Assembly (NCBI GenBank): GCA_016215705.1
Contig: JACRIR010000156.1
Location: 1-50,364 of the forward strand
Direction: 5' to 3'
Length of the DNA stretch: 50,364 bases
DNA from: Candidatus Poribacteria bacterium
GTDB lineage: Bacteria; Abyssobacteria; SURF-5
Part shown: piece after piece, positions 31,285 to 48,650 of the stretch
Layout of the letters: every line of letters begins with the position of its first letter
Position numbering within the stretch: the first letter of the stretch is position 1
Notes under the pieces: model-generated
Database searches by the model: none
What the model saw: the letters and a program-made list of their open reading frames with translations, nothing else
Told to the model about the DNA's origin: nothing
Made by a program: the position numbers and the translations under genes

Positions 31285-32039
31285 GTCTTCCTGATTTGCT
31301 CGAAGTATTCGACACGTTTCTCTATGTCTGCAATGCAGAACGGCTGCTCGATTACCGTAATCCCGCCGACGAGATTCGTCTCGATGTTTTTGTCCCGAGG
31401 CACCGCAAGTATGATCTCAACCCCGGGAATTCGAGGGTCGCAGGCAAGATGCCTGCACAACTCTTCGCATTTCTCCAGGTCCGTGACGCAATCCACTATC
31501 ACGTATTCAGGACGAAAAGAATCAACCACCAATGAACAGTCGTATTCACAACTGGCAAATTGAAAACGGAACCGCGTAGAACTGGCTTGCTTCGTCAGAA
31601 TTCCCCTAAGCAAGGCATTGTCGGTGAAAACGAGCACGTTGATGGGTCGCTGTCGCTGTTCTCTGTAATACGAGCACTCCTCACAATCCGTCTGGCAACA
31701 CGTCGCGCCTTCCCCTTTTTCTCTGAGAACCCTGCCCACGTCGTAGCACCTTGATCCCTTTGCCTTGAATACGAGGCAGGACCGGCAATTCTCCTTGATC
31801 TTGCCGGCGGCGGCGTTATATTCCCAGCAAGGAACTGGCGGCCTTTTCGACGGCATGTGCTCGTTGTCGGCAATGTCTCTCGCGGCGGGCAACAATGAGG
31901 CCACAGAGTCATGCGGAATACGGTAGTGTCCGCCTGCCGTCTTCATGGCCTTCAGTTTTCCCCTTCTGATCCATTTAACGACCGTATCCGGGGTTACTGA
32001 GAGCATTTTGGCTGCCTGACCAGTTGAGATATATTGCAT
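31281..32039 (-). CDS. BldC/MerR-like regulator with eight-cysteine cluster and receiver-like domain (R1)
   Basis: Probable transcription factor (252 aa). Residues 1-50 form a BldC/excisionase-type winged HTH (STGQAAKMLSVTPDTVVKWI, KTAGGHYRIP). Residues 71-122 form a cysteine module: CWEYN, CRSC, RCY, TCC and CEEC, with Cys at 71, 85, 88, 98, 114, 115, 119 and 122. A C-terminal domain (about 133-245) has a receiver-like pattern (NVLVFTDN, YVIVDC, VIEQPF) but lacks the acidic pair and conserved Lys, so it is probably not phosphorylated. The start at 32039 is set by alignment with the paralogue at 32252-33004, with identical Cys positions. It is the first gene of a unit with the NHL and giant cytochrome genes. 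A metal, Fe-S or redox sensor is inferred. Confidence 0.8.
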   Translation of the reverse strand: MQYISTGQAAKMLSVTPDTVVKWIRRGKLKAMKTAGGHYRIPHDSVASLLPAARDIADNEHMPSKRPPVPCWEYNAAAGKIKENCRSCLVFKAKGSRCYDVGRVLREKGEGATCCQTDCEECSYYREQRQRPINVLVFTDNALLRGILTKQASSTRFRFQFASCEYDCSLVVDSFRPEYVIVDCVTDLEKCEELCRHLACDPRIPGVEIILAVPRDKNIETNLVGGITVIEQPFCIADIEKRVEYFEQIRKT

Positions 32040-32055: not shown

Positions 32056-32114
32056 TTTATTTTATTTATGGGATTTATGTGATTTAGCTTACCACAAGAT
32101 TGGTTGCCTGTCAA
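32056..32114 (-). promoter_or_regulatory. R1 promoter with four 9-bp-spaced TTTAT/ATAAA repeats
   Basis: Minus-strand TTGACA (32114-32109) lies 17 bp from a poor -10, TAAGCT (32091-32086). Directly downstream, the plus strand reads TTTAT at 32056, 32065 and 32074 and TTTAG at 32083, all at exactly 9-bp spacing, that is ATAAA-type units reading toward the gene. The array spans the -10 to 17 bp before the ATG. This suggests head-to-tail binding of a small regulator and likely autoregulation. Confidence 0.7.
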
Positions 32115-32251
32115 GTAAGCAACACATAATCAGACAAAAAACGTCCGATTATGCGTTTCCGGAAAAGGCGAGATTACGTTCCCGGGGGAGAATCGACACG
32201 AGTTCTATCCGGTTTGGCAATTTTGGGGCAGCTTCTTGAGGGACAATTCCT

Positions 32252-33004
32252 CTACTCGGATGACTCGATGCGATCCAGCAAAGACTCGACATCGGCGACG
32301 CTTTTGGGCCTTTCAATGATGCTAATATTCTCTTGCATGCTCGTTTTGCAGGTCATTCCGGGCGGCAAGAGCAGGAAGATTCTCACACCCGGAATGCGCG
32401 GATCATTGGCGAGACGTTCGCACAAATTGTCGCATTTGGCTGATTTCCCCTTGCAGTCCAGGATCACATATTCAGGGCGGAAACAATCCACAGTCACAGA
32501 GCAGTCATATTCAGAAGTGGTGAAGCGGAGGCGGATGCGGGGAGGGCTCGGTTCTTTTGCCAGAGAACCTTTCAAGGACGAATCGCCCGTGTGAACAAGC
32601 ACACTGATCGGCCTGTGGCCCTGCTCCTTGTAGTAACTGCATTCTTCGCACTTTGTCGGGCAGCACGTCGCCCCCTGCCCTCTTTCCTTCAGAATTTTTC
32701 CAACTTCGTAACATTTAGATCCCTTTGCCTTGAACACAAGGCAGGAAGAACACTGGTCCTTGATTTTGCCTTCTATCGAGTTGTATTCCCAGCAGGGAAC
32801 AAGCCTTTTCTTTTGGTGTGGTCCCCTTTCGTTACGCGAGGCTTCTTCCCCTTTAAGGAGACTCTGGACTGAGTCGAGCGATATTCGGTAATGCCCGCCG
32901 GCCGTCTTTCGAGCTTCCAGTTTTCCCGCTTTGATCCATTTCAGAACTGCGTCAGGTGTGACTGAGAGCAGTCTTGCGGCCTTTCCTGTAGAGACATAGA
33001 GCAT
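32252..33004 (-). CDS. BldC/MerR-like regulator with eight-cysteine cluster and receiver-like domain (R2)
   Basis: Paralogue of R1 (250 aa) in tandem, with the same three-part layout. The HTH is nearly identical in its recognition region (STGKAARLLSVTPDAVLKWI, KTAGGHYRI), so both may bind the same sites. All eight cysteines of the 71-122 module are at the same positions, and CLVFKAKGS and GATCC are identical. The receiver-like domain is more divergent (SVLVHTGD, YVILDC, IIERPK), so the two may respond to different inputs. The gene has its own promoter and ATAAA array. R1 begins 212 bp after its stop. Function is inferred from architecture and context. Confidence 0.8.
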   Translation of the reverse strand: MLYVSTGKAARLLSVTPDAVLKWIKAGKLEARKTAGGHYRISLDSVQSLLKGEEASRNERGPHQKKRLVPCWEYNSIEGKIKDQCSSCLVFKAKGSKCYEVGKILKERGQGATCCPTKCEECSYYKEQGHRPISVLVHTGDSSLKGSLAKEPSPPRIRLRFTTSEYDCSVTVDCFRPEYVILDCKGKSAKCDNLCERLANDPRIPGVRIFLLLPPGMTCKTSMQENISIIERPKSVADVESLLDRIESSE

Positions 33005-33017
33005 TTGTCACCGGCTT

Positions 33018-33085
33018 TTTATTTGTTTTATTCGTTTTATTTCATGTTATAGCTCTTCTATACCATATCTTTCTCGCGTTGTCAA
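33018..33085 (-). promoter_or_regulatory. R2 promoter with three 9-bp-spaced ATAAA repeats
   Basis: Minus-strand TTGACA (33085-33080), a 17-bp spacer and TATAGA (33062-33057) make a good sigma-70 promoter. Plus-strand TTTAT occurs at 33018, 33027 and 33036 (9-bp spacing), with a weaker fourth unit near 33045. The array lies between the expected transcription start and the ATG at 33004, a repressor-like placement. Confidence 0.72.
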
Positions 33086-33199
33086 TTAAAAAAATATCCG
33101 GTCTCAAGAATCGACAGGTCCAGGGGTCGGATTGGCGGAAGGCGAATCTGGGAGGTGCAGGGGGTTTGTTGACTCCGTTACGAGCGTGGTGTTCGCACT

Positions 33200-33694
33200 C
33201 TAGTGGCGCAAGAGAGAATTGTTCTCGCTGCTGTGCGGATCGTGGCACGAGGTGCAGTCATTGGAATGAACGGCTGCAACATGTTTCTGAAGCCCGTTTT
33301 CCTCATGACAGTAGGTGCAGAGTTTTTCACGTTTACGCACGAGGAATTCTGAGGCCTCGGAGCCATGAGGATCATGGCAGACCGAACACTGTCCGATACC
33401 AACCGGGCCATGGGCCCACGCGGCATCATCTACTCTCGCGTGACACTTGTAGCACACGTCGCTCTCTTTGCTCTGCAGCCTGAAGTCCTTATCCTTCGCG
33501 CCTCGGTGGCAGGCTTCGCACCCCTGTTTCGTACTTTTAAAATGATATCGATAAACGCTCTCTGTCCTGGCAGCGATTGTCGATCCTAAGTTGGATGATA
33601 GTCCATAAGCGGTTCCCAAGAGCGAGAAAACAAGCATCGCACTTGTGACAGCGAAGATGGGATGAAGGATAGAAGCGCCCCGCGTTTCATTCAT
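33200..33694 (-). CDS. Pentaheme c-type cytochrome (doubled-CXXCH type)
   Basis: The product (164 aa) has an N-terminal signal/anchor helix (PIFAVTSAMLVFSLLGTAYG) and five CXXCH motifs: CEACH, CYKCH, CSVCH, CTYCH and CTSCH. The last, and the third, are followed by DPHGS/DPHSS, the doubled-CXXCH signature with a nearby distal His. Probably a periplasmic electron carrier, perhaps membrane-tethered. ATG 33694 overlaps the end of the upstream TlpA-like gene by 8 bp, so the two are translationally coupled; longer starts in this frame lie within that gene. Confidence 0.88.
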   Translation of the reverse strand: MNETRGASILHPIFAVTSAMLVFSLLGTAYGLSSNLGSTIAARTESVYRYHFKSTKQGCEACHRGAKDKDFRLQSKESDVCYKCHARVDDAAWAHGPVGIGQCSVCHDPHGSEASEFLVRKREKLCTYCHEENGLQKHVAAVHSNDCTSCHDPHSSENNSLLRH

Positions 33695-34355
33695 TTTTTC
33701 TGAGTTCCTTCTTGACAACAGAAGACAATTCTTCGTACGTGACGGTTCCCGCCTTGGAAAAGACGATTCGACCACCCTTGTCTATGACATAGATCGTGGG
33801 GGTTCCCTGAACCCCGTACGGGTCTGCGATCCTGAGGGAATCTCCTTCGGGCTCATCCAATAGAACTGTCAACTGAATATTCTCCTGCTCGACGAAAGCG
33901 CGAATCGCGTTAGACATCTCGGCTCCATCCATATTGACAGCGTAAAAGTCCAACCCTTTGCGGTGATACCTGCGATAAATGTCGTTGTATGCCGGCATTG
34001 AACTTTTGCACGGCTCGCAATAAACCGACCAAAAGACCAGCACGATCACGTTCTTTCCGATCCTGTCACTCAGCTTGAGGCGATTGCCACGCACATCGGA
34101 CACCTCGAACATGGGTGCTTTGTCACCCACTTTGAGCATTGTGATATCTTTGATCATAGGAGTAAATGCTCCCTCTTCTATCTCGGCGAAGCGCGTCGAA
34201 CTCCCGGAGACGCACGAAGCGAGGAGGCAGCCGACTGCCGCAACCAGCAGCGCCCTGAGGATACCTTTTGTGAATCCAGGGTCTGATAGCGGACTGCTTC
34301 CACGCAACCCTTTGGATCGTGAGTTTAGGATTTGCAAGCGCATCCGCTGTGTCAT
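33687..34355 (-). CDS. TlpA-like thioredoxin-fold lipoprotein
   Basis: Periplasmic thiol-disulfide protein (222 aa). An extended N-terminus leads to a lipoprotein signal (LVAAVGCLLASC). The thioredoxin domain has LKVGDKAPMFEVSDVRG, the redox motif FWSVYCEPCKSSMP (CEPC), and the cis-Pro loop GVQGTPTIYVID. TlpA/ResA relatives reduce apocytochrome cysteines for heme attachment, which fits the coupled cytochrome gene downstream. Start 34355 has GGGGG about 10 nt upstream; 34364 is possible but too close to that site. Confidence 0.85.
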   Translation of the reverse strand: MTQRMRLQILNSRSKGLRGSSPLSDPGFTKGILRALLVAAVGCLLASCVSGSSTRFAEIEEGAFTPMIKDITMLKVGDKAPMFEVSDVRGNRLKLSDRIGKNVIVLVFWSVYCEPCKSSMPAYNDIYRRYHRKGLDFYAVNMDGAEMSNAIRAFVEQENIQLTVLLDEPEGDSLRIADPYGVQGTPTIYVIDKGGRIVFSKAGTVTYEELSSVVKKELRKNE

Positions 34356-34872
34356 GGCAACCATTCCCCCTTCGGCAATTAGTGTGCCAATCTTCCTACG
34401 AAGAGCTGGCTGAAATGCGAACATTCAGACATAAAGCACAATGTAATGTACCATAAGGCGGCTTTGAATGCAATATCTTGAGTTCTGCGAGCATGAAACG
34501 GCTTCCAACAAAGCTTTCTTCCCGAGAAAACAACTGTCCGCCAAACGTCAGCATTCGGACATTGCACACAACGCCGAGAGGGGATTCCATCGCGGCGTCA
34601 TGCTTGTTGTCGTCGTTTGCTCTCCTAGTTGATAAATTTATCTTTTTTATGGAATTTATGTAATACTTGACTTGCAAAAAGGGAATCCGGTAGACTAAGT
34701 GTCACGAACTTCAAGGGAGAGAGGTTTGTCGCGGTTGCGCGTTGGGCGGATGATGTCCGTCGCACGACACATTACGTTTCGCAAGTTCAGGTTTCAGGAG
34801 TTTGTCACGCTTTCGCTGAAAGCCGTCTTGGAGAGGCATGAGAAGGGCAGGCACGGCCCGGGAGAGACGATC
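34356..34872. other. Divergent control region of the cytochrome operon
   Basis: About 520 bp between the minus-strand TlpA gene and the plus-strand cytochrome operon. It holds the promoter and repeat array described separately, and two similar 20-mers, ACATTCAGACATAAAGCACA (34421) and GCATTCGGACATTGCACACA (34551). A long leader, about 34703-34872, precedes the cytochrome ATG; no small gene or RNA structure was recognised in it. Confidence 0.5.
34637..34696 (+). promoter_or_regulatory. Cytochrome operon promoter with three 9-bp-spaced TTTAT repeats
   Basis: TTGACT (34667-34672), an 18-bp spacer and TAGACT (34691-34696) form a sigma-70-like promoter for the plus-strand operon. TTTAT occurs at 34637, 34646 and 34655, exactly 9 bp apart, ending 8 bp before the -35. 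Unlike the arrays at the regulator genes, this one is upstream of the promoter, a position typical of activators. Confidence 0.72.
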
Positions 34873-36579
34873 ATGAGAAGAAGGGTTTTTTTTCTGAGTG
34901 TCGTTGCATGTGCTGCTATTGCGCTTTTGGCAGGCTTTTTCACTCGAGCAGTCGGGGCCGGTGACGGCAAGATATCTATTGTTTTTCCGAGTTCTAATGT
35001 ATATGTGACTCAACCGCAGATAGAAGTCGTTGGCCTTGTCAAAGGAACTGCGGCCAGTCAGGTAAGGGTGGCCGTGAAAGGTGGAAGAGCTGTAGGAGGG
35101 GAAACCGCCCCCGTTGTTAAGAATGCGTTTGCATGCGCAATTGAGTTGAAACCCGGCATCAACCAGATATCTATCTCGGACGCTGCGGGAATCAGCGAAG
35201 GTTCAAGCGTCTCAGTGTTTTTCCAGACGGAGGGGAACCAGAAAACAAGGCCCGCGGAATTCAGTCCCTATTATCTGCACTCGCCGTTGAAGAAACGCGC
35301 GTGTGAGGAGTGTCATAATCTCGGCGGCGCCGTTCCGAGTTACAAGCGGATGGGTCCCAGCGCCACGTGCATGAGCGGAGAGTGTCACAAGACGATGGGC
35401 CAAGCGGCATTCGTTCACGGTCCGGTGGCGGGTGGCACATGCGTCGCGTGTCACAACCCGCACGGCTCGAAGAATCCGTATTACAGAGCGAGAACGGACG
35501 CGCAGGAATGCTACGTTTGTCACGAGAAGCAGCAAACCGATTTCGCAAAAGCGAACAAACACAAACCTGTGGCCAACGGGCATTGCATCGATTGTCACGA
35601 CCCCCATCAATCGGGAACGAAATTCCAGTTGAAGGCGGCTTCAATTCAAGGTCTCTGTTTCAATTGTCATGACGGCAAATTGATCAAGGAGCCTTATCTG
35701 CATGGTCCCGTGGCCGCCGGTGGCTGTGTTGTATGCCACAATCCGCATGCGGCCAATCAGCCGAAACTACTGGTCAACGAGGAGCGCGTTTTGTGTTTCA
35801 CTTGTCATGCGGAAAGCAAAGCGCGATTTGAGCTCAAAAACACGCACAAACCGGTGACCGAATCGTGTTTGAAATGTCACCGGCCTCACGGTTCCATTGA
35901 CCCGATGCTTCTCGTGAAGAAGGAATCGGAGCTCTGTCTGTCTTGTCACGAGAAGCTCCATCCAGCCGTTGCCAAAACGATCAAAGACTCGACGGTAAAG
36001 CATCCGCCGGTCGCCGAAGGCAAATGTGTCTCTTGCCATACCCCTCACTCGACAAATTTCGAGAAGCAGTTGAAGGCATCGATGCAGACCATCTGTTTCA
36101 CCTGTCACGCGGAGGTAGGCCAGAGCGTCAAGACGAGCAAGTATCCACACGGGCCGGTGAAGGACAATGATTGCTACGCATGCCATATAAGTCACGGCTC
36201 CAACAACCCGAAGATTCTCAAGAACTACTTCCCCGACGAATTCTACACGGCTTATGCGACGGAGAAGTATGCGATCTGCTTCGACTGTCACAACAAGAAC
36301 ATTGCCCTTGAGGAGTTGACGACCACACTGACTAATTTCCGCAACGGCAATCGCAATCTCCATTTCCTCCATGTCAACAAGGACCCCAAAGGTCGCAGTT
36401 GCAAAGCTTGTCACGAGGTGCATGCAGGCAACCAGGCCAAACATATCAGGGAGGAAGTGCCATTTGGCAGCATGTGGAGCTATCCCATCAATTATACGAA
36501 GCTCGAGACGGGCGGCAGGTGCCTTGTCGGGTGCCACAAACCCAAGGAATACGACCGGATGAATCCAGTCGCGTACTAG
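34873..36579 (+). CDS. Multiheme c-type cytochrome (doubled-CXXCH, 14-16 hemes) with N-terminal Ig-like domain
   Basis: Secreted cytochrome (568 aa). After the signal peptide (about 1-30) a beta-sandwich domain (about 35-120; ISIVFPSSNVYVTQPQIEVV) precedes 14 canonical CXXCH motifs. Most lie in repeats of the form HGPV..C..CH(N/D)PH, the doubled-CXXCH family. One CX4CH (CMSGECH) and one CX3CH (CLVGCH) may bind further hemes. Such proteins are extended periplasmic or surface electron conduits. ATG 34873 has GGAGAG upstream; the frame is open further up without signal-peptide character. It is first in an operon of about eight genes, and a related protein is encoded at 41902. Confidence 0.88.
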   Translation: MRRRVFFLSVVACAAIALLAGFFTRAVGAGDGKISIVFPSSNVYVTQPQIEVVGLVKGTAASQVRVAVKGGRAVGGETAPVVKNAFACAIELKPGINQISISDAAGISEGSSVSVFFQTEGNQKTRPAEFSPYYLHSPLKKRACEECHNLGGAVPSYKRMGPSATCMSGECHKTMGQAAFVHGPVAGGTCVACHNPHGSKNPYYRARTDAQECYVCHEKQQTDFAKANKHKPVANGHCIDCHDPHQSGTKFQLKAASIQGLCFNCHDGKLIKEPYLHGPVAAGGCVVCHNPHAANQPKLLVNEERVLCFTCHAESKARFELKNTHKPVTESCLKCHRPHGSIDPMLLVKKESELCLSCHEKLHPAVAKTIKDSTVKHPPVAEGKCVSCHTPHSTNFEKQLKASMQTICFTCHAEVGQSVKTSKYPHGPVKDNDCYACHISHGSNNPKILKNYFPDEFYTAYATEKYAICFDCHNKNIALEELTTTLTNFRNGNRNLHFLHVNKDPKGRSCKACHEVHAGNQAKHIREEVPFGSMWSYPINYTKLETGGRCLVGCHKPKEYDRMNPVAY

Positions 36580-36590
36580 GAGAACCGCGC

Positions 36591-37598
36591 ATGAAACGTC
36601 TCTTATACATCGCCTCCGTTATGCTGGCGGCGTTTCTTCTCCCTCTCAACGCTTCCTCTGCGTTCGCCTTTCGCAATATCGCAGAGGGAGACAAAGCGCC
36701 CGATTTTGCTCTTCTTTCCGTGGATGGGCAGAGCGTGTCCTTGAGTTCATATTCGGGGAAAGTGGTAGTGCTTATCTTATGGTCGGCCGATACGGAAAGC
36801 AAGGAACAGAGAGCCTCAGAACTGCTAAGCGCCGTCCAATCGGTCGTCCGGAAATATGGAGACAAGGGTCTGGCCGCATTGTCAGTGAATTTTGACAAAG
36901 ACGGCCGTGACCGGGCTGCCGCTATTGCGAAGAAAGCAGGCGCCTCGTTTCCAACCCTTATGGACGAGCAGGGAGTAGTATATGGAACTTACGGCGTATT
37001 CATTCTGCCCACTGTGGGCATCATAGGGAAAGACGGGCGGCTGCAGAAGGCATACGGATACACTCGGGACATCGAAAGAATGCTTGAAGGAGAAGTGGAA
37101 GTGCTTCTTGGCCTCAAGACGAAGGAAGAAGCGGAAAAAGAACTGATCCGTCTTGAGGTTGTCGAGAAACCGCAAGAGTTGAAAGACGCCGACCGGCATC
37201 TCAACCTTGGCCGCGTCTTGCTTGAACGCCGATTGCCCGATCAGGCGCGGCAGGAGTTTGAAAAGGCCGCCGAACTGGACCCGAGCAACGCCGAGACGCA
37301 AATTGAACTCGGCCTTCTTCTCATTGAAGCGGAGAAATACGATGATGCCGTCATCAGGCTCACGCAAGGGCTCGAGCTTGATTCCAAGTCGGCCAAAGCG
37401 CATTCCGGACTCGGATTGGTGTATCTGCGAAAAAATGAACTGGACAAGGCTGCCGATGAGTTGGCATGGGCGCTGGAGATTAATCCGAGAGACGCAAGGA
37501 CTTACTATCTTCTCGGAACCGTGCATGAGAAGAAGGGAGAGAAAGAGAAAGCTTTAGAGCAATACAAGAAAGCGCTGAAGCTGGTTTTTGAAGATTGA
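36591..37598 (+). CDS. TlpA-like protein lacking CXXC, fused to TPR repeats
   Basis: Exported protein (335 aa) with a signal peptide ending SAFAF. A thioredoxin/peroxiredoxin-like domain (about 30-170) keeps the fold landmarks (EGDKAPDFALLSVDGQ, VNFDKDG, GVFILPTVGIIGKDG), but where CXXC should be it reads LWSADTESKEQ, so classic dithiol chemistry is lost. Three to four TPR units follow (about 205-330; HLNLGRVLLERRLPDQARQE, AHSGLGLVYLRKNELDKAAD). It begins 11 bp after the cytochrome gene with AGGAG. A chaperone or assembly-scaffold role for apocytochromes is likely (inference). It is a tandem paralogue of the next gene. Confidence 0.85.
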   Translation: MKRLLYIASVMLAAFLLPLNASSAFAFRNIAEGDKAPDFALLSVDGQSVSLSSYSGKVVVLILWSADTESKEQRASELLSAVQSVVRKYGDKGLAALSVNFDKDGRDRAAAIAKKAGASFPTLMDEQGVVYGTYGVFILPTVGIIGKDGRLQKAYGYTRDIERMLEGEVEVLLGLKTKEEAEKELIRLEVVEKPQELKDADRHLNLGRVLLERRLPDQARQEFEKAAELDPSNAETQIELGLLLIEAEKYDDAVIRLTQGLELDSKSAKAHSGLGLVYLRKNELDKAADELAWALEINPRDARTYYLLGTVHEKKGEKEKALEQYKKALKLVFED

Positions 37599-37608
37599 CC
37601 GAGCGCTC

Positions 37609-38724
37609 ATGCAGAGAGACGGTCGAAGCGTGGCGCCACGTTGTGGAGGTTGTTCCGGAATCCTGTTGCGCCGGAAAATAAGGAGCCTGTGGGTGATCAT
37701 AGCGCTTTTGGCGGTGCTGCTGCTCCCGTTTGCTCCGGCGTCGTCGGCTTTTCCCCTTCGTACTCTGGAAGTGGGGGGCTATGTGCCGGATTACGTGTTG
37801 CCGTCGGTGAGCGGCGGAGAGATGCATGTCCTGGGACCCAAGGGAAACATAACGGTGCTCGTTTTTTGGTCGACGGACACCGAGGCCAAACAGACCAGGG
37901 CCTTTGATCTCTTGAGAACGCTCCAGTTAATCGAGGATCGCTACGCCGGCCAAAAGGTTACCGTTTGCTCGGTCAATTTTGACAAGGGGAAGCGTGAGTA
38001 TCTGAAAGACCTCCTGGAGGCCAGGGGGGTCACCGTTCCTGTATTGCTCGACGAGAGAGAGGTAGTCTACGGCGCTTACGGGCTTTTTGTTTTTCCCACA
38101 GCCGCCATCGTGGACCGCGACGGGACATTGAAGTTGGCGGTGGGATACACTCACGACATCCACTTGAGGATTCTGGGAACGCTCGATGTTCTGCTCGGCC
38201 TGAGAACGGACGAACAATTGGAAAAAGACTTGCATCCTGAAGAAATAGTCGAATTGCCCGAGAACGTCAGGAAGTCCGTTATGCATTTGAACCTGGGCCG
38301 CAGCTTCGTGCAGAAATCGATGCCTGAGGCTGCCGTGCAAGAGTTTGAAAGGGCGACCGAACTTGACCCGCAGAATTCCGAGGCCCGCTCAGAACTGGGA
38401 ACGTTCTATGCAAGAGAAGGGAATCTTGAGAAAGCGGCCGCAGAACTGAGCCAGGCTGTCGCTCTGAAGCCGGATTCCGCACAGGCGCATTTCGGACTCG
38501 GGATGCTCTGTCGGAAAAAAGGCGAATTCGACAAGGCGATATCGGAGTTCGAAAGGGTTTTGAGCCTTGAGCCCGCCCATGCCGAGGCCCTTCGCGAGTT
38601 GGGCATTGTTTATGAAAGCATGGGCAGTATGGATAAGGCTCTGGAGTACTACAGAAAATCCCTGGGCGTGATATTTGGTGAGAGTGAACGTGAACGAGCA
38701 ACGCTTATCGAGTCAACGAATTGA
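37609..38724 (+). CDS. TlpA-like protein lacking CXXC, fused to TPR repeats (second copy)
   Basis: Paralogue of the preceding gene (371 aa, same order of domains). The thioredoxin-like domain (VPDYVLPSVSGGEM, GLFVFPTAAIVDRDG) again lacks CXXC, reading FWSTDTEAKQT at that place. TPR units cover about residues 225-355 (HLNLGRSFVQKSMPEAAVQE, AHFGLGMLCRKKGEFDKAIS). The start is uncertain: ATG 37609 has a weak ribosome site, while a GTG near 37693 has AAGGAG 7 nt upstream but would shorten the signal peptide. It starts 10 bp after the previous stop; the next gene may overlap its end. Confidence 0.82.
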   Translation: MQRDGRSVAPRCGGCSGILLRRKIRSLWVIIALLAVLLLPFAPASSAFPLRTLEVGGYVPDYVLPSVSGGEMHVLGPKGNITVLVFWSTDTEAKQTRAFDLLRTLQLIEDRYAGQKVTVCSVNFDKGKREYLKDLLEARGVTVPVLLDEREVVYGAYGLFVFPTAAIVDRDGTLKLAVGYTHDIHLRILGTLDVLLGLRTDEQLEKDLHPEEIVELPENVRKSVMHLNLGRSFVQKSMPEAAVQEFERATELDPQNSEARSELGTFYAREGNLEKAAAELSQAVALKPDSAQAHFGLGMLCRKKGEFDKAISEFERVLSLEPAHAEALRELGIVYESMGSMDKALEYYRKSLGVIFGESERERATLIESTN

Positions 38725-38851
38725 CATCCGAAAGGAATGTCGCCTCCGTTGCCGGCCAGAGGAACGAGGACAGACGGCGGCAGGCCGAATCTCTTCGAGG
38801 TGGTTCGCGGGAAATCAAGCGGCGGAGCGACGGCTCGCACACCGTGGGAAC

Positions 38852-40042
38852 TTGTCAAAGAAGAGTTCTCTCGTCATACCTTCGGCAATCGTCTTTCTTA
38901 TTGCCGGACTGACGGCCTGCGCGACGAATCGCGCGCAGGGAGCGGCGGAGAAAATTGTCTCGCGCGGGGCAAGCGATTCGAGGGGCGATTTTGCGGGGTC
39001 TGAGACCTGCAATCCTTGTCATAAGGAGATATGCGACAAGTGGGAAAAGACTTTGCACGCGCGAATGATGCAGGACGCGAGGCGGAATCCGGATGCCATA
39101 CTCGGCGACATGGCGCAGAGTCTGCCGTTCTCGAGGGTTGACATCAAGTATACCCTTGGCAGCCATTGGACCCAGAGGTATCTCACCGAGATTGAGGGAG
39201 AATACTACGTACTGCCGAGGATGTGGTCCATCCAGTCGCGTGAATGGCTGCCATATAGCATTTTTTCATGGAAAGAGAAGCCCTGGCGTGTTTATTGCGC
39301 GGGCTGTCACACGACCGGATACAATGCGGAGACAGGCGCATTTGCGGAAACCTCCATCGGATGTGAGGCGTGCCATGCGCCCGGCGCAAAGCACGTGAAG
39401 AATCCCTCCGCTGCGGGTTTGATCGTGAATCCCGCGAAATTGAGCAAAGAGCGCAGCCTTATGGTATGCGAATCATGCCACGTGCGGGGAACAGACAACG
39501 GCAACCCGGAATTCTATTTTCCACTTCGCTATTCGCCGGGTGATGATTTGTCGGAGACTTACACCCCGCTCGACAGACTTGAAGGAGAAAATGTGGCCCG
39601 CGCTTTTCACAGGATTTACGACGAATGGAAGGATAAAGTCAGCCAGCCCGAGGGCACATCGTGCGAGTTGTGCCAGAATTTCCGCGCGCCGAACGAACCG
39701 GCGCAAGTCGCGCACGACTCGTCGGAACCCCAATTGATCTGCTATACATGCCACAACTTGGGCGAGAAGCTGGAGGACCATACCCACCATAAGAAACAGA
39801 TGGAATGCACTGACTGTCACATACCCGTTTTCTCGAAATCCGGTGGCTCGCAGGACATCCATTCTCACAGATTCCAATTCCGCACCCCCTCGAAGTATCT
39901 TGCATATGAATCATGTTATGAAACCAAGATCGCGGAATCATGCTCTGCCTGTCATAGCGACAAATCCATCAACTGGGCGATCAAAGCGATAAGCGAATGG
40001 GATGTTCGCCCATTTAAGAGGTACTACAAGGTGGGAGACTGA
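38852..40042 (+). CDS. Multiheme cytochrome c554-like lipoprotein (7 hemes)
   Basis: The product has a lipoprotein signal (VFLIAGLTAC) and seven CXXCH motifs: CNPCH, CAGCH, CEACH, CESCH, CYTCH, CTDCH and CSACH. The opening ETCNPCHKEICDKWEKTLHA matches the cytochrome c554/c-prime family pattern. Between the fourth and fifth motifs is CELCQ, a CXXC lacking the His. The start is unclear. The frame is open from a GTG at 38675 inside the previous gene, but that segment is Arg-rich and unlike a signal peptide; TTG 38852 gives a clean lipoprotein signal though its ribosome site is poor. A paralogue is encoded at 40640-41863. Confidence 0.82.
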   Translation: MSKKSSLVIPSAIVFLIAGLTACATNRAQGAAEKIVSRGASDSRGDFAGSETCNPCHKEICDKWEKTLHARMMQDARRNPDAILGDMAQSLPFSRVDIKYTLGSHWTQRYLTEIEGEYYVLPRMWSIQSREWLPYSIFSWKEKPWRVYCAGCHTTGYNAETGAFAETSIGCEACHAPGAKHVKNPSAAGLIVNPAKLSKERSLMVCESCHVRGTDNGNPEFYFPLRYSPGDDLSETYTPLDRLEGENVARAFHRIYDEWKDKVSQPEGTSCELCQNFRAPNEPAQVAHDSSEPQLICYTCHNLGEKLEDHTHHKKQMECTDCHIPVFSKSGGSQDIHSHRFQFRTPSKYLAYESCYETKIAESCSACHSDKSINWAIKAISEWDVRPFKRYYKVGD

Positions 40043-40056
40043 AGGCGGTGAGACAT

Positions 40057-40650
40057 ATGAGCCGAATGATGAGGCTATCTTGTCTATTGTTGCTCTTTGC
40101 GCTTCTTATCTTCATGAATGGGCGCATCGCGGAAGCGGAGCTCAAGTACATTGGCGTGAGAGAGGGAGATCCCGCGCCGGACTTTTCTCTTGCGACAATA
40201 GATGGACAGAGTTTCACCCTATCCTCCTTTCGGGGAAAGAAGGTTGTGCTGCTCGATTTTTGGGCCACATGGTGCAACGTGTGTAAGAAGGAATTGCCGA
40301 CGATAAACAAGGACTACAAGAAATATCGTCAGAGAGGCTATGAGGTTCTTTCCATCGTCCTGAATGCCAACGACATGGAAGGCATCCGCAGAGTAAAGGA
40401 AGAAAAGGCAATAGAATTCCCGATCCTTCTGGATTCGAAATGGGACGTGTCCAAACTCTACGGCCTCGAGGGACCGATCCCGGTCATGGTAGTGATCGAC
40501 GCAAAAGGAATTGTTCGTTTCACTCATTTCGGCGAATTTCCCGCCGGCGAAAACGAGATTCCATACGTTGTCGAAGCCCTGCTTGGAGAGATGCCGAAGG
40601 GAAACGCATCTCCACAGGGAACGCGTGGTCGAGAAAAAAATGCGGAATAA
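40057..40650 (+). CDS. TlpA/ResA-like thiol-disulfide protein
   Basis: Periplasmic thioredoxin-fold protein (197 aa) with an N-terminal signal (LLLLFALLIFMNGRIAEA), which may be cleaved. The redox site is intact: DFWATWCNVCKKELP (CNVC). Other landmarks are GDPAPDFSLATIDGQSF and GPIPVMVVIDAKG. It probably keeps cytochrome cysteines reduced for heme ligation. ATG 40057 has GAAGGCGG 8 nt upstream, better than GTG 40048. It lies between two paralogous c554-like cytochrome genes and overlaps the second by 11 bp. Confidence 0.88.
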   Translation: MSRMMRLSCLLLLFALLIFMNGRIAEAELKYIGVREGDPAPDFSLATIDGQSFTLSSFRGKKVVLLDFWATWCNVCKKELPTINKDYKKYRQRGYEVLSIVLNANDMEGIRRVKEEKAIEFPILLDSKWDVSKLYGLEGPIPVMVVIDAKGIVRFTHFGEFPAGENEIPYVVEALLGEMPKGNASPQGTRGREKNAE

Positions 40651-41863
40651 CGTATACGTTGCGACAATGCGAACGCCGGCAGCGCCTGTCGCCTTCCGCA
40701 TCATGCTCGCGAGCCTGATGCTGTCATCGGTCTTTTGCGCGGTGGTGGGATTCCCGTGTTCCGCAAGCGCGGCCGACGCTGCGAAGTTTGTCACATCGGA
40801 GAAGTGCAAGGAATGTCACCCGGAGATCTACAAACAGTGGAAGATGACTCCTCATGCGAGGATGCTTCGCAACGCCCGAAAAGACTCTTCCGCCGTTCTG
40901 GCGGACCGCTTTACCGAAGAAATACCTTTTCAGAAGAAAGACATCGAGTTCACTCTGGGCTCGCATTGGATTCAGAAGTACCTGACCAGAATAGGACAGG
41001 AACTATACATACTGCCGAAGTTCTGGAACATCGTGAAGGGCGAGTGGGAACCCTACAGCATCTGGAACTGGCAGAACCGCCCTTACAGCGAACACTGCAA
41101 CTGGTGCCACAGTGTCGGGTACGACACAAGGAACAAGACTTTCGTCGAGGAGAGCATCGGCTGCGAGGCCTGTCACGGCCCAGGCGGGAAACATGCCGAG
41201 ACGGCCAAGGCGGACGACATCATCAACCCTGCGAAGTTGTCGAAAATGCTATCCGACATGATTTGCGAGGCGTGCCATACCGACGGCAAGGACCGCGAGA
41301 CAAAGACGTATCCCTATCCGGCAGGATACGCGCCTGGTGAGGACCTCCGTGACTATTACACTGATTTCTTTATGCCGAAACCGGGCTCGAAGGGTTGGTA
41401 TCGAGGGGAAGCCACGTACATGGAACGACACAGGATGTTTCTTTATTGGCAATCCAGCTTTTATTCGACTGCGAGATCTTGCGAAGTGTGCGAGTTCGAC
41501 AGAGGAATAACCGTGAAAGAAAAACGCTACATGTCCCGGGACGAGTATTGCGGAACGTGTCACGGAGCGATACTTGCGGAATTCGAGCTGCACTCGAAGC
41601 ACTCGCGGGGCGACGCTACATGCGCCGAATGTCATGCGCCAATGGTTGACGCCACGGGCCAACGATACAGCATCCACGACCACAAATTCGATTTCAGCGG
41701 ACCCGAGCTTCCTTGCGCCGAGTGTCACGCGGACGAACTGAAAGAGATTTCGACCGACCCTCCGCACAAATTCAATTTTAGCCAGGTGCAAATAAGGGAG
41801 AATATTACGCCGCAGCAGGCATGCGATCGGTGTCACGCCGGCGCCAAACTCCGATCTCATTGA
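40640..41863 (+). CDS. Multiheme cytochrome c554-like protein (8 hemes)
   Basis: Periplasmic cytochrome (407 aa). A signal peptide ends near SASAADA, followed by eight CXXCH motifs: CKECH, CNWCH, CEACH, CEACH, CGTCH, CAECH, CAECH and CDRCH. The start of the mature part, KCKECHPEIYKQWKMTPHAR, fits the c554 family. Between motifs four and five is CEVCE, at the same place as CELCQ in the paralogue at 38852, so a His-less CXXC is conserved. The initiating ATG overlaps the TlpA-like gene by 11 bp (translational coupling). Confidence 0.88.
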   Translation: MRNNVYVATMRTPAAPVAFRIMLASLMLSSVFCAVVGFPCSASAADAAKFVTSEKCKECHPEIYKQWKMTPHARMLRNARKDSSAVLADRFTEEIPFQKKDIEFTLGSHWIQKYLTRIGQELYILPKFWNIVKGEWEPYSIWNWQNRPYSEHCNWCHSVGYDTRNKTFVEESIGCEACHGPGGKHAETAKADDIINPAKLSKMLSDMICEACHTDGKDRETKTYPYPAGYAPGEDLRDYYTDFFMPKPGSKGWYRGEATYMERHRMFLYWQSSFYSTARSCEVCEFDRGITVKEKRYMSRDEYCGTCHGAILAEFELHSKHSRGDATCAECHAPMVDATGQRYSIHDHKFDFSGPELPCAECHADELKEISTDPPHKFNFSQVQIRENITPQQACDRCHAGAKLRSH

Positions 41864-41901
41864 CCACGGGCTTTCGCTGAAGCCGACCAACAGGGTTTTG
41901 A

Positions 41902-43086
41902 ATGGGGAGATTCAAAATACGCGCGGAGTCGCTTTATTTATTGAAGGCGCAACGCTCAATCCTGAGACCTCGAGGGAGGATTGTTCTCTTGTGGGCGGGG
42001 GGCATAGGAGTCGCGGTGTCGTTGTTCGCAATGCCTTTGGCGGCCCAATCCGGCTCATCCAAAGCCCCAAGCCCTCTTGCGGTGCTGGCGCCTGTGACGT
42101 TTACGTCCACAAGCGCCGAGAACGTCTTTGTAGTCGTTTCCGCCAATGACGGCGTCAAGGACCTCACGCTCAGGTTAAACGACGGCCCTTCTGTCATGCC
42201 CAGGAGGTCGGATCGGAATATACACCATTTCAGGACGCGACTGGCAATAGGACCTAACGTTATTCGGGTGATTGGTTCAACAGGAAACACCACAGTGGCA
42301 GAAGAGTTGGCTATCTTCAGACTGGCGAAGGTAGGGATGCGCGCAGTTGCTCCGTTTCCAAAATACTACTTCCACACTGACCTTTTCGAGAAACGGTGCA
42401 AGAGCTGCCACGAGACCGCGCCGGAAACGGCATCCGAAAAAGACCCGACAGTGAAATCCGTCTGCCTCAAGTGCCATACTCCTCTGGTTTCCGAGAAGTT
42501 CGTCCACGGGCCGATCGCCGTGGGCACGTGCTCGATCTGTCACAATCTCTCGAGCGAGCCCAACAGATACCAATTGAAGCAGGCCAGTTTCGACCTTTGT
42601 CTTCTGTGCCACACCAAAACGGCCGAAGCTCTCAAGACAAGCAAATTTACGCATGGACCTCTTGGCGCTGCGCTATGCGACGTGTGCCATGAGCCTCACA
42701 GCTCTCCCAATCTTGCGAGTCTGAGACAACCGAGCGGAGAGATATGTATGGTCTGCCACAAAACACTCGAGAGTTTGTACCAGACAAGGACCTACTTACA
42801 TATTCCTTTCAAGCAGCGTATGTGCTGCAAGTGTCACGACCCTCACTATTCCGACGAAAATTTCTTGCTGAAGAAAACCGACGACCAGATATGTCGCTCA
42901 TGCCATCAAGAAGCTATGGAAGAACACACACATCCGGTAGGAGTCATTCCGAAAAGAAAATTGCCTTTTGAGGCGCGATACGGAGAAGGGGGAGAACTGC
43001 TTTGCGTCACTTGTCACAATCCTCATGCCTCAGAAGGGGAGCATTTGCTGCCGAAAGAAGGATGTTCGGCGTGCCACATGATGTGA
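41902..43086 (+). CDS. Decaheme c-type cytochrome with N-terminal Ig-like domain
   Basis: The product (394 aa) has an N-terminal signal/anchor (VLLWAGGIGVAVSLFAMPLA), a beta-sandwich region (about 55-140; APVTFTSTSAENVFVVVSA) and ten CXXCH motifs from CKSCH to CSACH, one being CCKCH. Spacings with HGPI/HGPL and C..CH(N/D/E)PH mark it as a doubled-CXXCH cytochrome. It resembles the larger cytochrome that opens the operon (34873), so the operon has related cytochromes near both ends. An alternative start is a TTG near 41989 with GGGAGGA upstream. Confidence 0.86.
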   Translation: MGRFKIRAESLYLLKAQRSILRPRGRIVLLWAGGIGVAVSLFAMPLAAQSGSSKAPSPLAVLAPVTFTSTSAENVFVVVSANDGVKDLTLRLNDGPSVMPRRSDRNIHHFRTRLAIGPNVIRVIGSTGNTTVAEELAIFRLAKVGMRAVAPFPKYYFHTDLFEKRCKSCHETAPETASEKDPTVKSVCLKCHTPLVSEKFVHGPIAVGTCSICHNLSSEPNRYQLKQASFDLCLLCHTKTAEALKTSKFTHGPLGAALCDVCHEPHSSPNLASLRQPSGEICMVCHKTLESLYQTRTYLHIPFKQRMCCKCHDPHYSDENFLLKKTDDQICRSCHQEAMEEHTHPVGVIPKRKLPFEARYGEGGELLCVTCHNPHASEGEHLLPKEGCSACHMM

Positions 43087-43128
43087 AAGAAGAATCTTTG
43101 AACCGCGACTGCGTTCGGAGGAGCAATC

Positions 43129-44820
43129 ATGAATAAATTCTCGCAAAACCTGGGGTTTCGGCTTATTGCCTCGTCTATTCTCCTCGCCGTCGCCACGATT
43201 TTTGTCGCGGGATACGTTGTATACAAGAGAAGCCAGGTCGCCATTGTCGACAGCGCCTTGCACATGGTCAGGGAAGTGGCGCTCACGGTAGCTCAGGTGG
43301 ACTCCGCCGTCTTCATAGATGACTACCTGCAGAAGTATCTGACATCCAAGAGCGGGGGCGCATGGCTGATGGACAGCGACGGCGAGATACTTGCCAGCAC
43401 CGACCCGGCGTTGGGTGGCTCGGTCTCGGGCGAAAAGCCTCTCAGCAGGACGGTTTTCCGCCTCCAGTTTGCCCAAAAGTTCCAGAGGTTTGATGATTCA
43501 AAACGCACAGATGTTCACCTCGTGACCCCCTTGGACATAATGGCCAGGTATGAAGAAGGCATCGCCGAGTACGACTACAAGGACGCCACACGAATAGTCG
43601 CATTCAAGGTCATTCCCGGCAAGAACTGGCTTTTGGGCATTGACAAGCCGGTCGGGACGGCATACTCGGAACTCGACAACATCAAGAAGTATATCGTGAT
43701 CGTGTGCATCATCAGCATCGCTATGGTATCCGTTTTTTCCTGGTTGGCTATCACAAGAATCATCCAGCCATACTACAAGGACGTGGAAGACCTGAACGCC
43801 CGGCTGAGCGACTCCGTGAGGAAGCTCTCCGCGCTGCACAGGGTGGGCAAATCACTCCAACGGGTTTTGCCGCCGCACGATTTGCTGAGAGAGAGCATGA
43901 AGGGCGTTGCGGAAGCGCTCGGGTATGAAAGGATATTGGTGTACCTCGGGGGAAAAGACGTACAGAGCGCCAGGCTCGAGATGATATTGGAGAACGGAGA
44001 GGCTCTGTCGCCCGACAGAGCGCCGGAGGAGGCGCGCGTCCTGTCGCTGGACAGACAAAACGGCATTCTGGAGCGCGCTCTCATCGAACAGCGCCCTTAC
44101 ATTATCCGCGACCCCCTCACGAGCGATCTCGTTGATGGGGACAAGGCACGAATCCTCGGTCTTCAAGAGTTCGCCGTTGTGCCGCTCGTTGCAGAGAGCA
44201 AATGCATCGGCGTCATCGCCGTGGACAATCCCCTCTCAAAGAAACATATTCGCAACGAAGATATCGATACTCTGGCGACTTTTGCGGATCATGCGGGGTT
44301 GGCCATCGAGAGCGCGCGACTCCATACGGAATTGCAGAACTACGCCTATGACCTGGCGGCCACGGATTCACTCACCGGCTTATCCAATCGGTCGCATTTT
44401 GCGACATGGTTGGAAGCCCAAATGGCGGACAGCCGGAGGGAAGGGAAAGATTTTTCGATTGTTTTTATTCAGGCGCATTCTCTGAGGGAAATCAATCAAG
44501 AGTTCGGATACGCGGCCGGGAACATCGCGTTGAGACGACTGGGGCAGATGATTTCGGCGTCTCTCGTCGGAGAATCCAAAGCGGCAAGATTGGGCGGCGG
44601 AGAATTCGTAGTAGGTCTTCCGGCGCATTGCGAGGACTTTGCAAGAAAAGCGGCAGAAGAGCTTGAGCAGCGTGTTAGAGATTTCCGCTTCACCGAGGAA
44701 GGTCTTGAAAAAGCTCCTTTACGCATTACAGTCGTCCACGGCGGGCTAAGAGACGACAAGACGCCGGAGGAGTTCCTCGAACGCATGAGAAGATTGGTTC
44801 CAGCCCGAGGAGCCCAGTGA
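43129..44820 (+). CDS. Membrane sensor with GAF and degenerate GGDEF domain
   Basis: Signalling protein (563 aa). Membrane helices near 10-30 and 190-210 flank a periplasmic Cache-like sensor (GGAWLMDSDGEILASTDPAL, VIPGKNWLLGIDK). A coiled coil and GAF domain (about 235-405; LGLQEFAVVPLVAESKCIGVIAVDNP) lead to a GGDEF fold (about 410-560; ATDSLTGLSNRSHF). The active site reads RLGGGEF instead of GGDEF/GGEEF, and the metal Asp region reads VFIQAHSLREINQEFGY, so it is probably not a cyclase. It starts 42 bp after the cytochrome gene and is likely the last gene of that operon, suggesting a regulatory or GTP/c-di-GMP-binding role for the island. Confidence 0.85.
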   Translation: MNKFSQNLGFRLIASSILLAVATIFVAGYVVYKRSQVAIVDSALHMVREVALTVAQVDSAVFIDDYLQKYLTSKSGGAWLMDSDGEILASTDPALGGSVSGEKPLSRTVFRLQFAQKFQRFDDSKRTDVHLVTPLDIMARYEEGIAEYDYKDATRIVAFKVIPGKNWLLGIDKPVGTAYSELDNIKKYIVIVCIISIAMVSVFSWLAITRIIQPYYKDVEDLNARLSDSVRKLSALHRVGKSLQRVLPPHDLLRESMKGVAEALGYERILVYLGGKDVQSARLEMILENGEALSPDRAPEEARVLSLDRQNGILERALIEQRPYIIRDPLTSDLVDGDKARILGLQEFAVVPLVAESKCIGVIAVDNPLSKKHIRNEDIDTLATFADHAGLAIESARLHTELQNYAYDLAATDSLTGLSNRSHFATWLEAQMADSRREGKDFSIVFIQAHSLREINQEFGYAAGNIALRRLGQMISASLVGESKAARLGGGEFVVGLPAHCEDFARKAAEELEQRVRDFRFTEEGLEKAPLRITVVHGGLRDDKTPEEFLERMRRLVPARGAQ

Positions 44821-44833
44821 TCTGCCCCTGCTC

Positions 44834-44890
44834 TTGACAGAATCTCAAAGAGATGGTAGTATATTGCATAAAGTCAATAAAACGCATAAA
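44834..44890 (+). promoter_or_regulatory. Promoter with three 9-bp-spaced ATAAA repeats upstream of the second cytochrome unit
   Basis: TTGACA (44834-44839) with a 17-bp spacer to TAGTAT (44857-44862), or a 20-bp spacer to TATATT (44860-44865). ATAAA follows at 44868, 44877 and 44886, exactly 9 bp apart. The array sits on the expected transcription start, as at the regulator promoters. The first gene begins at 45030 after a ~150-nt leader. Confidence 0.7.
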
Positions 44891-45029
44891 CTGAGGCATC
44901 AACAGACTCCCAAACTTGCAAAGGACCCCCATGAAACGCCAGTTACCTTTGCAGACGGTAGAAAGTAGTTTCACCCTGGTCATATGACCCAACGAACGCC
45001 GGATTCTATGCAATTCGGGAGGAGAATTG

Positions 45030-46100
45030 ATGGGAAAGTGCGTTGGCTCTAGGAGGCTCCTGTCGTTTGTTACTATGCTCTGGCTGGCGACCTCGTGCGC
45101 GACCAATATCAGCACAACCGTGAAGAAGGACCCCGAACTGGCGCGCATTAAGAGTTTTGGCGTGATAGATGTTGCAGAGCTTAGAGGCGGCGACATAGTC
45201 TCCAAAGCTCTGGTGTCGGGCCTGCGTCAAAAAGGTTTTGTTGCGGAAAAGGCGCAAACGGCTGAGGAAGACTCTATTCGCAACGCGGCCCGTGGGCTGA
45301 ATGTTGACGGCGTCATCTACGGCTATATTTCCAGAACAGAACAGCATTCCTGGGTAACTCAAGGAGAAGAGCGCGTGCGGACGCGGGAAACCGCTACGGG
45401 GACGAAGGAAACCGTCACCTACGAGCCTCCGAGGCTGATTATAAATAAGACCATTAACGTGAGAATACGCGCTCTTGACAGCGTCACGGGAGACCTCTTG
45501 TGGGATGCGGAGGCGGAAATCACAGACGATATTGGAGCAGATGACGCGTATATGGTCGAGAAACTCGTGGGGAAGATACTTGAAGAACTCCCCCACTCCT
45601 CTACGAAAGGAGCCCTCGTTCCCCAGACGCAGGAGAATCAAAGCGTCCTTGTTGGACAGCACGCGCCCGACTTTGTCGCAAATACGATAAAGGGGGAGAA
45701 AATAGCTCTTGCGGATTTCGTGGGGAAGAAAACCATTGTGCTGAATTTTTGGGGAATCAGGTGCCTGCCCTGCATTCAGGAAATGCCAAAACTGGAAAGC
45801 ATTTACGGCCGATACAAAGACAAAGGGCTTGAAATTCTGGCGGTGAACGTCGACGGCGTGGATTCCGAGGTCATGCAGGCGAATCTTGTAAAGCAATTGG
45901 GAGGAACGAGCCTCAGCGTAACCTATCCCCTTCTGCTCGACGAGGAGTTCAAGATCATCGACCTGTATCATCTGACGGTGGCTCCATTGACAGTATTGAT
46001 TGATCGCGGCGGGGTTATCCGCTATCGACATACTGACTACCAGCCGGGAGACGAAGTCGATCTCGAGAATGCTATTAAGCAAGTGCTTCAATCAGGGTGA
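45030..46100 (+). CDS. Lipoprotein fusing a CsgG/GNA1162-like domain to a TlpA domain
   Basis: The product (356 aa) has a lipoprotein signal with lipobox ATSC. The first half (about 25-190) looks like the secreted alpha/beta domain of CsgG or DUF799/GNA1162-type lipoproteins (FGVIDVAELRGGDIVSKALV, NVDGVIYGYISR, RALDSVTGDLLWDAEAEI). The second half (about 205-355) is a TlpA thioredoxin domain with an intact CLPC motif (NFWGIRCLPCIQEMP) and a Pro loop (LTVAPLTVLIDRGG). GGGAGGAG precedes the ATG. The combination suggests a redox protein tethered near an outer-membrane assembly (inference). First gene of a unit with another TlpA protein, an NHL protein and a cytochrome. Confidence 0.78.
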   Translation: MGKCVGSRRLLSFVTMLWLATSCATNISTTVKKDPELARIKSFGVIDVAELRGGDIVSKALVSGLRQKGFVAEKAQTAEEDSIRNAARGLNVDGVIYGYISRTEQHSWVTQGEERVRTRETATGTKETVTYEPPRLIINKTINVRIRALDSVTGDLLWDAEAEITDDIGADDAYMVEKLVGKILEELPHSSTKGALVPQTQENQSVLVGQHAPDFVANTIKGEKIALADFVGKKTIVLNFWGIRCLPCIQEMPKLESIYGRYKDKGLEILAVNVDGVDSEVMQANLVKQLGGTSLSVTYPLLLDEEFKIIDLYHLTVAPLTVLIDRGGVIRYRHTDYQPGDEVDLENAIKQVLQSG

Positions 46101-46170
46101 AACACGGCGAGGCCATTGCGTCAGTAATTGCGTGTGGAATGATGCGGCGCCGTTGGAGAGGTGAGAAGCG

Positions 46171-46758
46171 ATGAAGGGAAAGTCAGCACAGATTATTTTC
46201 GGAGTGTTGCTTATGGGCGTTGTGATTGCCATTCCGTCGACTCCGTGTCTGCCGTCACTCCTTGACACGGGGCCGAAAGTCACGCAGGGAGACGCGTTGT
46301 CTCCCTTTGTTGCGACTGACTTGCAGGGCAGGGAAGTCAATCTGGCAAGCTACCTCGGGCACAAGGTAGTTCTGCTTGACTTTTGGTCCATATACTGCGC
46401 CCCTTGCGTTGCGGAAATGCCCACTCTGATTGATCTCCATAATAAGTACAACAAGATGGGATTGGAAGTGTTCGGAGTGAGTCTGGACAGCCATTTTAAC
46501 GCGCGCAGGCTCGCAAAGTTCGTGGAAGGTTTCGAGTATCGCATTCCTTATCCTATCATTCATGACGCGGGCTCGCAGATTCGCCAAATGTACGGGGTTG
46601 GCACGTTGCCGACCACGATAATCGTTGATGCCAGTGGCAAGGTGCAACTAATCCATATCGGTTTCTCGAAGGAAGACAAGAGGCTCATTGCGGATTTCGT
46701 AATACGCCTCATGGAAGAGCAAACAAGAAAAACGTCGCAGGTCAGACCCTCTAAATGA
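46171..46758 (+). CDS. TlpA/ResA-like thiol-disulfide protein
   Basis: Periplasmic thioredoxin-fold protein (195 aa). It has an N-terminal signal/anchor helix (IIFGVLLMGVVIAIP), an intact redox motif DFWSIYCAPCVAEMP (CAPC), and the cis-Pro loop GVGTLPTTIIVDASG. A role in cytochrome c maturation or in keeping extracytoplasmic cysteines reduced is expected from the family and the neighbouring cytochromes. It lies 70 bp after the fusion lipoprotein gene, same strand. Confidence 0.88.
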   Translation: MKGKSAQIIFGVLLMGVVIAIPSTPCLPSLLDTGPKVTQGDALSPFVATDLQGREVNLASYLGHKVVLLDFWSIYCAPCVAEMPTLIDLHNKYNKMGLEVFGVSLDSHFNARRLAKFVEGFEYRIPYPIIHDAGSQIRQMYGVGTLPTTIIVDASGKVQLIHIGFSKEDKRLIADFVIRLMEEQTRKTSQVRPSK

Positions 46759-46851
46759 GGGGCCATATTGTGTGAGAGGCTGGCCAACGGCCATCCTCGA
46801 GTGGCAGCAGTCTGATGATCTCCTGCCAAGAACTAAGGAGGAAGACGGAAG

Positions 46852-48444: not shown

Positions 48445-48650
48445 TCAAAGATACTACGAATCACTGACTGTTCTGTCGAGTACCAATTCGGGCACGAAGA
48501 GGTTGCGGGAGGGAGGTGGTAGCCGGAGTCATGGAACGCTCCGCTGCTTTTGGTTCACGATTGTTTCGAGGTCTTATTGTGTGAGTCACGAAAAGAAATC
48601 AGTAAGGAGTTGGATGGAAGAAGAGAATCACTGACCAAGGAGTTTCGAGT

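Follow-up and report, generated by a model that had tools for sequence, protein, structure and literature searches.

In the stretch of DNA considered here (50,364 nucleotides, hereafter the window), ATAAA words occur in sets of three, beside promoters of a multiheme cytochrome island (26184-50364). The cytochromes of this island carry 13, 5, 14, 7, 8, 10 and 10 CxxCH motifs, and two NHL-repeat proteins, several thioredoxin-fold (AhpC/TSA) proteins and a GAF-GGDEF protein are encoded there as well. This raises the question of whether these repeats are operators and, if so, which protein recognises them. The features needed for the discussion are listed below; R1, R2 and R3 denote three paralogous regulators.

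26184-29861, minus strand: multiheme cytochrome with 13 CxxCH motifs.
29887-31284, minus strand: NHL-repeat protein, overlapping the R1 frame by 4 bp.
31281..32039, minus strand: R1, with a BldC-like winged helix-turn-helix (wHTH), a seven-cysteine segment and a receiver-fold domain.
32056..32078, minus strand: putative operator 1, ATAAATCCC ATAAATAAA ATAAA, covering the R1 start site.
32086..32114, minus strand: predicted R1 promoter, TTGACA-N17-TAAGCT, called manually; its -10 box matches at only 3 of 6 positions and it is absent from the list of the promoter scanner.
32252..33004, minus strand: R2, paralog of R1 (57% identity in the search), with the same architecture.
33018..33040, minus strand: putative operator 2, ATAAAACGA ATAAAACAA ATAAA, within the R2 leader.
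33057..33085, minus strand: predicted R2 promoter, TTGACA-N17-TATAGA, also a manual call absent from the scanner's list.
33200..34424, minus strand: predicted target, a 5-CxxCH cytochrome and an AhpC/TSA thioredoxin-fold protein.
34637..34659, minus strand: putative operator 3, ATAAATTCC ATAAAAAAG ATAAA, in a divergent gap.
34667..34696, plus strand: predicted promoter of the 14-CxxCH cytochrome operon, TTGACT-N18-TAGACT.
34699..44820, plus strand: predicted target operon encoding multiheme cytochromes (14, 7, 8 and 10 CxxCH), thioredoxin-fold/TPR proteins and a GAF-GGDEF protein.
44834..44862, plus strand: predicted promoter, TTGACA-N17-TAGTAT, with TG ahead of the -10 box.
44868..44890, plus strand: putative operator 4, ATAAAGTCA ATAAAACGC ATAAA, covering the start site of the 45027 operon.
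45027..50364, plus strand: predicted target, two thioredoxin-fold proteins and an NHL protein.
G000:C235:11421-12149 (locus L007): R3, the third paralog, without operator.

The genes of R1, the NHL protein and the 13-CxxCH cytochrome are probably co-transcribed as a predicted operon. The 10-CxxCH cytochrome gene at 48651 is preceded by a 206-bp gap without operator.

The preliminary description of this DNA had reported four sets of ATAAA units with an exact 9-bp period, all of them within the cytochrome island, and an imperfect fourth unit of operator 1 (CTAAA, 32083-32087). All of this is confirmed, at the positions given above. The genome (G000) comprises 5.47 Mb in 270 contigs and is 92% complete. 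A scan of all of it found ATAAA-N4-ATAAA-N4-ATAAA without mismatch four times, every time inside the window, and the reversed pattern, used as backward control, once. Because the window represents 0.9% of the genome, this distribution is not chance scatter (about 8e-7 by our own arithmetic, even with the first match granted). The scan had been suggested in order to see whether the pattern is equally common in unrelated intergenic regions, and it returned no other exact match. Within the island, the four sites are all intergenic and occupy, one each, four of the five gaps longer than 100 bp. Moreover, same-strand ATAAA pairs in the window are separated by 9 bp in eight cases and by 18 bp in five, with 0-2 pairs at each of the other distances from 4 to 40 bp. 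When up to two mismatches are allowed, the genome yields 16 matches and the backward control 18; outside the window, those inspected fall in open frames, save one intergenic AT-rich stretch. Since these loose matches are no commoner than the control and nearly all of those inspected are coding, no further convincing site was found outside the window among the places inspected.

The units share the consensus ATAAAACnC. Their spacer letters and flanks vary between the four sites, which argues that the units are not simple copies of one another. Each set had also been described as lying beside a TTGACA or TTGACT promoter, and this holds, with three sets just downstream of the -10 box and operator 3 upstream of the -35 box. 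Operators 1, 2 and 4 have the same arrangement, namely TTGACA, 17 bp, a -10 box and then ATAAA units on the coding strand near the start site. The geometry of operator 3 differs. This site lies between the thioredoxin-fold/5-CxxCH cytochrome genes (minus strand) and the 14-CxxCH cytochrome operon (plus strand), ahead of the -35 box of the plus-strand promoter and in the opposite orientation, and no good -35 box was found for a minus-strand transcript passing through the repeat. The last unit of operator 3 falls within a perfect palindrome, GATAAATTTATC (34632-34643), which is absent at the other three operators.

The helix-turn-helix domains of R1 and R2 had been called BldC-like, and comparison with the BldC chains of BldC-DNA structures agrees with this, in the case of R2 both by sequence and by predicted fold. 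R1 and R2 are about 250 residues long, and the N-terminal parts of R1-R3 give a HTH_17/MerR-type match. In a phmmer search of R2 against solved structures, only the BldC structures 6ama and 6amk were matched (E 2e-5). The N-terminus of the AlphaFold2 model of R2 superimposes on 6ama (Foldseek) with 0.9 A over 52 residues, at 36% identity and a TM score of 0.89 by target. The NCBIfam HTH_BldC model gives 30-41 bits to the R family (38.5 for R1), below its cut-off of 77. From sequence and model together, the DNA-binding domain of R1 and R2 is nevertheless BldC-like. In an alignment of 11 homologs, the equivalents of BldC Trp31, Gly44, His46 and Arg48 are invariant. Arg30, which contacts bases in BldC, corresponds to Lys in R1-R3 and in the homologs that have the site, and to Asn in some Gemmatimonadota; at the interface, Leu43 is replaced by Ala or Pro, and Glu16 and Arg22 are not retained.

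Beyond this domain, seven cysteines of the middle part are invariant among the 11 aligned homologs (C71, C85, C88, C98, C115, C119 and C122 of R2), the first of them within an invariant CWE. This segment has no Pfam match, and the R2 model (mean pLDDT 74) is low in the middle part, so that fold searches are uninformative on it; the conserved cysteines are consistent with a possible metal, Fe-S or thiol site. Residues 131-249 of the R2 model match receiver domains (VIA-align, Z 13.8, 2.6 A over 115 residues). Pfam Response_reg matches two of 10 members, so the receiver is weakly recognisable by sequence. Asp183, at the end of the third strand of this domain, is invariant, and inspection of the alignment shows that the acidic pair of the first strand is reduced and that the usual KP is RP, QP, KP or AP.

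Three types of known regulators can be compared with this architecture. MerR proteins act as symmetric dimers on palindromes. Classical MerR proteins and CarH-type MerR-plus-sensor proteins resemble the R family in having a MerR-like HTH followed by sensor domains, and CarH is the top full-length Foldseek match of the R2 model, with a poor superposition. Unlike at classical MerR promoters, however, the direct repeats lie here outside the -35/-10 spacer, and the predicted spacers are of 16-18 bp, none of them long. Unlike in CarH-type proteins, the C-terminal domain of R matches receiver domains and not a B12 domain. Response regulators of the PhoP/PmrA type, which bind direct repeats (PMC5859096), share the receiver fold and the predicted direct-repeat binding, whereas in R the receiver is C-terminal, its acidic site appears incomplete and the DNA-binding domain is BldC/MerR-like. 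The closest parallel is BldC of Streptomyces (PMC5859096; PDB 6AMA, 6AMK), which has the same wHTH fold. The preliminary description had stated that BldC binds direct repeats head to tail, and this is borne out by the published work, where each protomer takes one 9-bp direct repeat (PMC5859096). BldC sites occur in either orientation, and the one at whiI lies at -50 to -80 (PMC5859096). BldC sites and R-family operators thus have in common 9-bp direct repeats, an AT-rich core, a variable number of units and either orientation. In contrast, BldC is a stand-alone domain of 68 residues with Arg30 and the consensus AATTXXXX(C), whereas R proteins combine some 250 residues, the seven-cysteine segment, the receiver-fold domain, Lys for Arg30, a replaced Leu43 and the consensus ATAAAACnC. 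It can be proposed that the change of Arg30 to Lys goes with the altered operator consensus.

Homologs of R are rare. Eight loci were retrieved by a search of genome contigs, and searches by phylum found homologs in three of 395 Gemmatimonadota genomes, one of 291 Armatimonadetes genomes and five of 39 genomes of the phylum of G145. All five homologs of the G145 phylum have the 9-bp repeat (2-3 units) directly upstream of the R gene, as does the main Armatimonadetes homolog (2-3 units). In both lineages, these operators come after a TTGACA-N16/17-(-10) promoter and overlap the start site, with the first unit at about -4 to +3 (up to +10 at R2). In the Armatimonadetes genome (8.3 Mb), the two-unit pattern occurs once, at the R promoter, and in G145 and G839 the sole exact three-unit match is at the R promoter. 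Using a leave-one-out 9-bp weight matrix, the three-unit model reached the floor p of 0.002 (500 shuffles) in eight of eight site-bearing R promoters; as four genomes were scored on a stretch cut around the known site, p there shows the strength of the repeat and not a blind discovery. With the same model, no clear three-unit ATAAA operator was found in the 11 other promoters (R3, Gemmatimonadota and Planctomycetota); among the Gemmatimonadota and Planctomycetota ones, a few two-unit and three three-unit scores were nominally low in p. Lone CCATAAA words are seen in some Gemmatimonadota and Planctomycetota homologs. In two Gemmatimonadota loci (L034 and L071), two divergent R homologs stand head to head; the gap of L034 contains lone CCATAAAACC-like words and no clear 9-bp repeat.

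Maximum-likelihood analysis places the eight site-bearing proteins together with R3 in a single group (support 100/99), so that the operator is present in eight of nine clade members, R3 being the sole exception. The simplest history suggested by these sequences is that the operator was gained once in the clade and lost at R3. The two nearest relatives, from the same family (G001 and G002), have neither the R family nor the pattern, and in other genomes the pattern is about as frequent as the backward control. Extra sites with 0-1 mismatch in G844, G846 and G839 were set aside as background: four of the six inspected fall in open frames, one is intergenic with no R gene nearby and one lies at a contig end.

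R1 and R2 had been named as candidate binders of the repeats, and the occurrence of the same operator before R homologs of other phyla, together with its tracking of the clade, supports this proposal. Because related regulator genes of two or more other lineages have this repeat in front of them, it is very probably a control switch of the R family, and we regard binding of the 9-bp repeats by R-family proteins as quite probable. The recognition helices of R1 and R2 are much alike, so shared binding of the putative operators by both is likely. R1, R2 or both would place one subunit on each 9-bp unit, in a head-to-tail assembly like that of BldC. Such a complex would lie across the start site at the TTGACA-N17 promoters of R1, R2 and the operon from 45027, which makes repression the most likely outcome and would amount to autorepression at R1 and R2; given binding by R, the position of the sites makes such repression a fairly good expectation. 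At operator 3, where the complex would stand ahead of the -35 box of the cytochrome operon, it could either activate, or switch off transcription both ways. The cysteine segment (as a metal, Fe-S or thiol redox site), the receiver-fold domain, or both would probably receive the signal, and cytochrome expression would then follow the redox state; for the cysteines, a redox or metal signal is plausible.

Several observations count against binding by R: the changes at Arg30, Leu43, Glu16 and Arg22, the NCBIfam BldC score, the geometry of operator 3, the absence of the operator at the close paralog R3 and at the Gemmatimonadota and Planctomycetota homologs, and the presence in the island of two paralogs that are indistinguishable by site. 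One may therefore ask whether another regulator binds the repeat, the R genes being simply among its targets. Other direct-repeat binders do exist, such as some response regulators (PMC5859096), and R3 is without a site while binding by R is itself deduced. Yet the R gene is the constant partner of the operator across differing gene neighbourhoods, the site follows the R clade down to its absence from the two nearest relatives that lack R, and head-to-tail units of 9 bp are the geometry known from BldC-type domains (PMC5859096). Another regulator is, on these grounds, an unlikely explanation.

The position of the repeat at or just after the start site, on the coding strand, in three of the four window sites and in all homolog sites would also suit an action at the RNA level, in which tandem AUAAA in the 5' leader would be bound by a protein or would control translation. 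Such an action appears very unlikely: operator 3 is reversed and upstream of the best plus-strand promoter, with no good -35 box for a minus-strand transcript, the first unit starts in several homologs from about -4, i.e. ahead of the transcript, the window has no match to a known RNA family in Rfam, and RNA action needs no strict 9-bp period. A leader peptide (9 bp being three codons) was considered and rejected by inspection, as the ATG that precedes the repeat at R2 meets TAA at once. Finally, a functionless low-complexity leader or a recent local duplication, to which the AT-richness of the island gaps (42-48% GC vs 54% for the window) and the paralogy of R1 and R2, whose leaders could be copies, might point, has hardly any chance of being correct, since the strict pattern appears in 0 of 100 shuffled windows, is unique to the island within the genome and is kept in other phyla, with spacers and flanks that differ between sites.

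Binding by R-family proteins being thus preferred, what may the family control? DsrC-like, DsrM-like (Nitrate_red_gam) and DsrK-like (Fer4/CCG) genes adjoin R in the four genomes of the G145 phylum that have enough flank, and such dsrC/dsrM/dsrK-type neighbours suggest a redox or sulfur respiratory role for the family. The order, an R homolog followed by dsrC-dsrM-dsrK-type genes, is conserved in these four genomes of one phylum (L066, L008, L064 and L067), and a second DsrC-like protein was confirmed in L066 and L008. The Armatimonadetes locus encodes a DsrK-like protein, a nitrite/sulfite reductase protein and a FAD-binding protein resembling AprA, the last recognised by eye only. DsrM/DsrK-like genes are also found nearby in the Gemmatimonadota locus L071. 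A wider proposal can be put forward, namely that R represents an undescribed, filament-forming family of BldC type with a Cys-rich redox or metal sensor and a receiver fold, whose ancestral autoregulatory 9-bp-repeat operator governs respiratory modules in several phyla, these modules being dsrC-dsrM-dsrK-type genes in one lineage and multiheme cytochromes in the window; we find the case for it evenly balanced.

Head-to-tail binding of the BldC type has so far been worked out for a small developmental protein of Streptomyces, and none of the papers searched describes a regulator of this kind, BldC-like and acting on dsr or multiheme cytochrome genes. The R family would add a second protein of quite different build, whose matching 9-bp operator is shared by distant lineages and associated with respiratory genes. 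What is new here is the putative recognition of direct repeats in the BldC manner by a larger, cysteine-rich, receiver-bearing protein, as read from sequences and a structural model, and the four operators provide a predicted regulon for the multiheme cytochrome island. Elsewhere in G000, contig C2 (L081) carries dsrC together with dsrM-, dsrK- and dsrJ-like frames (the last three by eye), without operator; these genes would give the organism a sulfur-respiring or sulfur-oxidising potential. In the neighbourhood of R3, a frame resembling an aldehyde-ferredoxin oxidoreductase was noted by eye.
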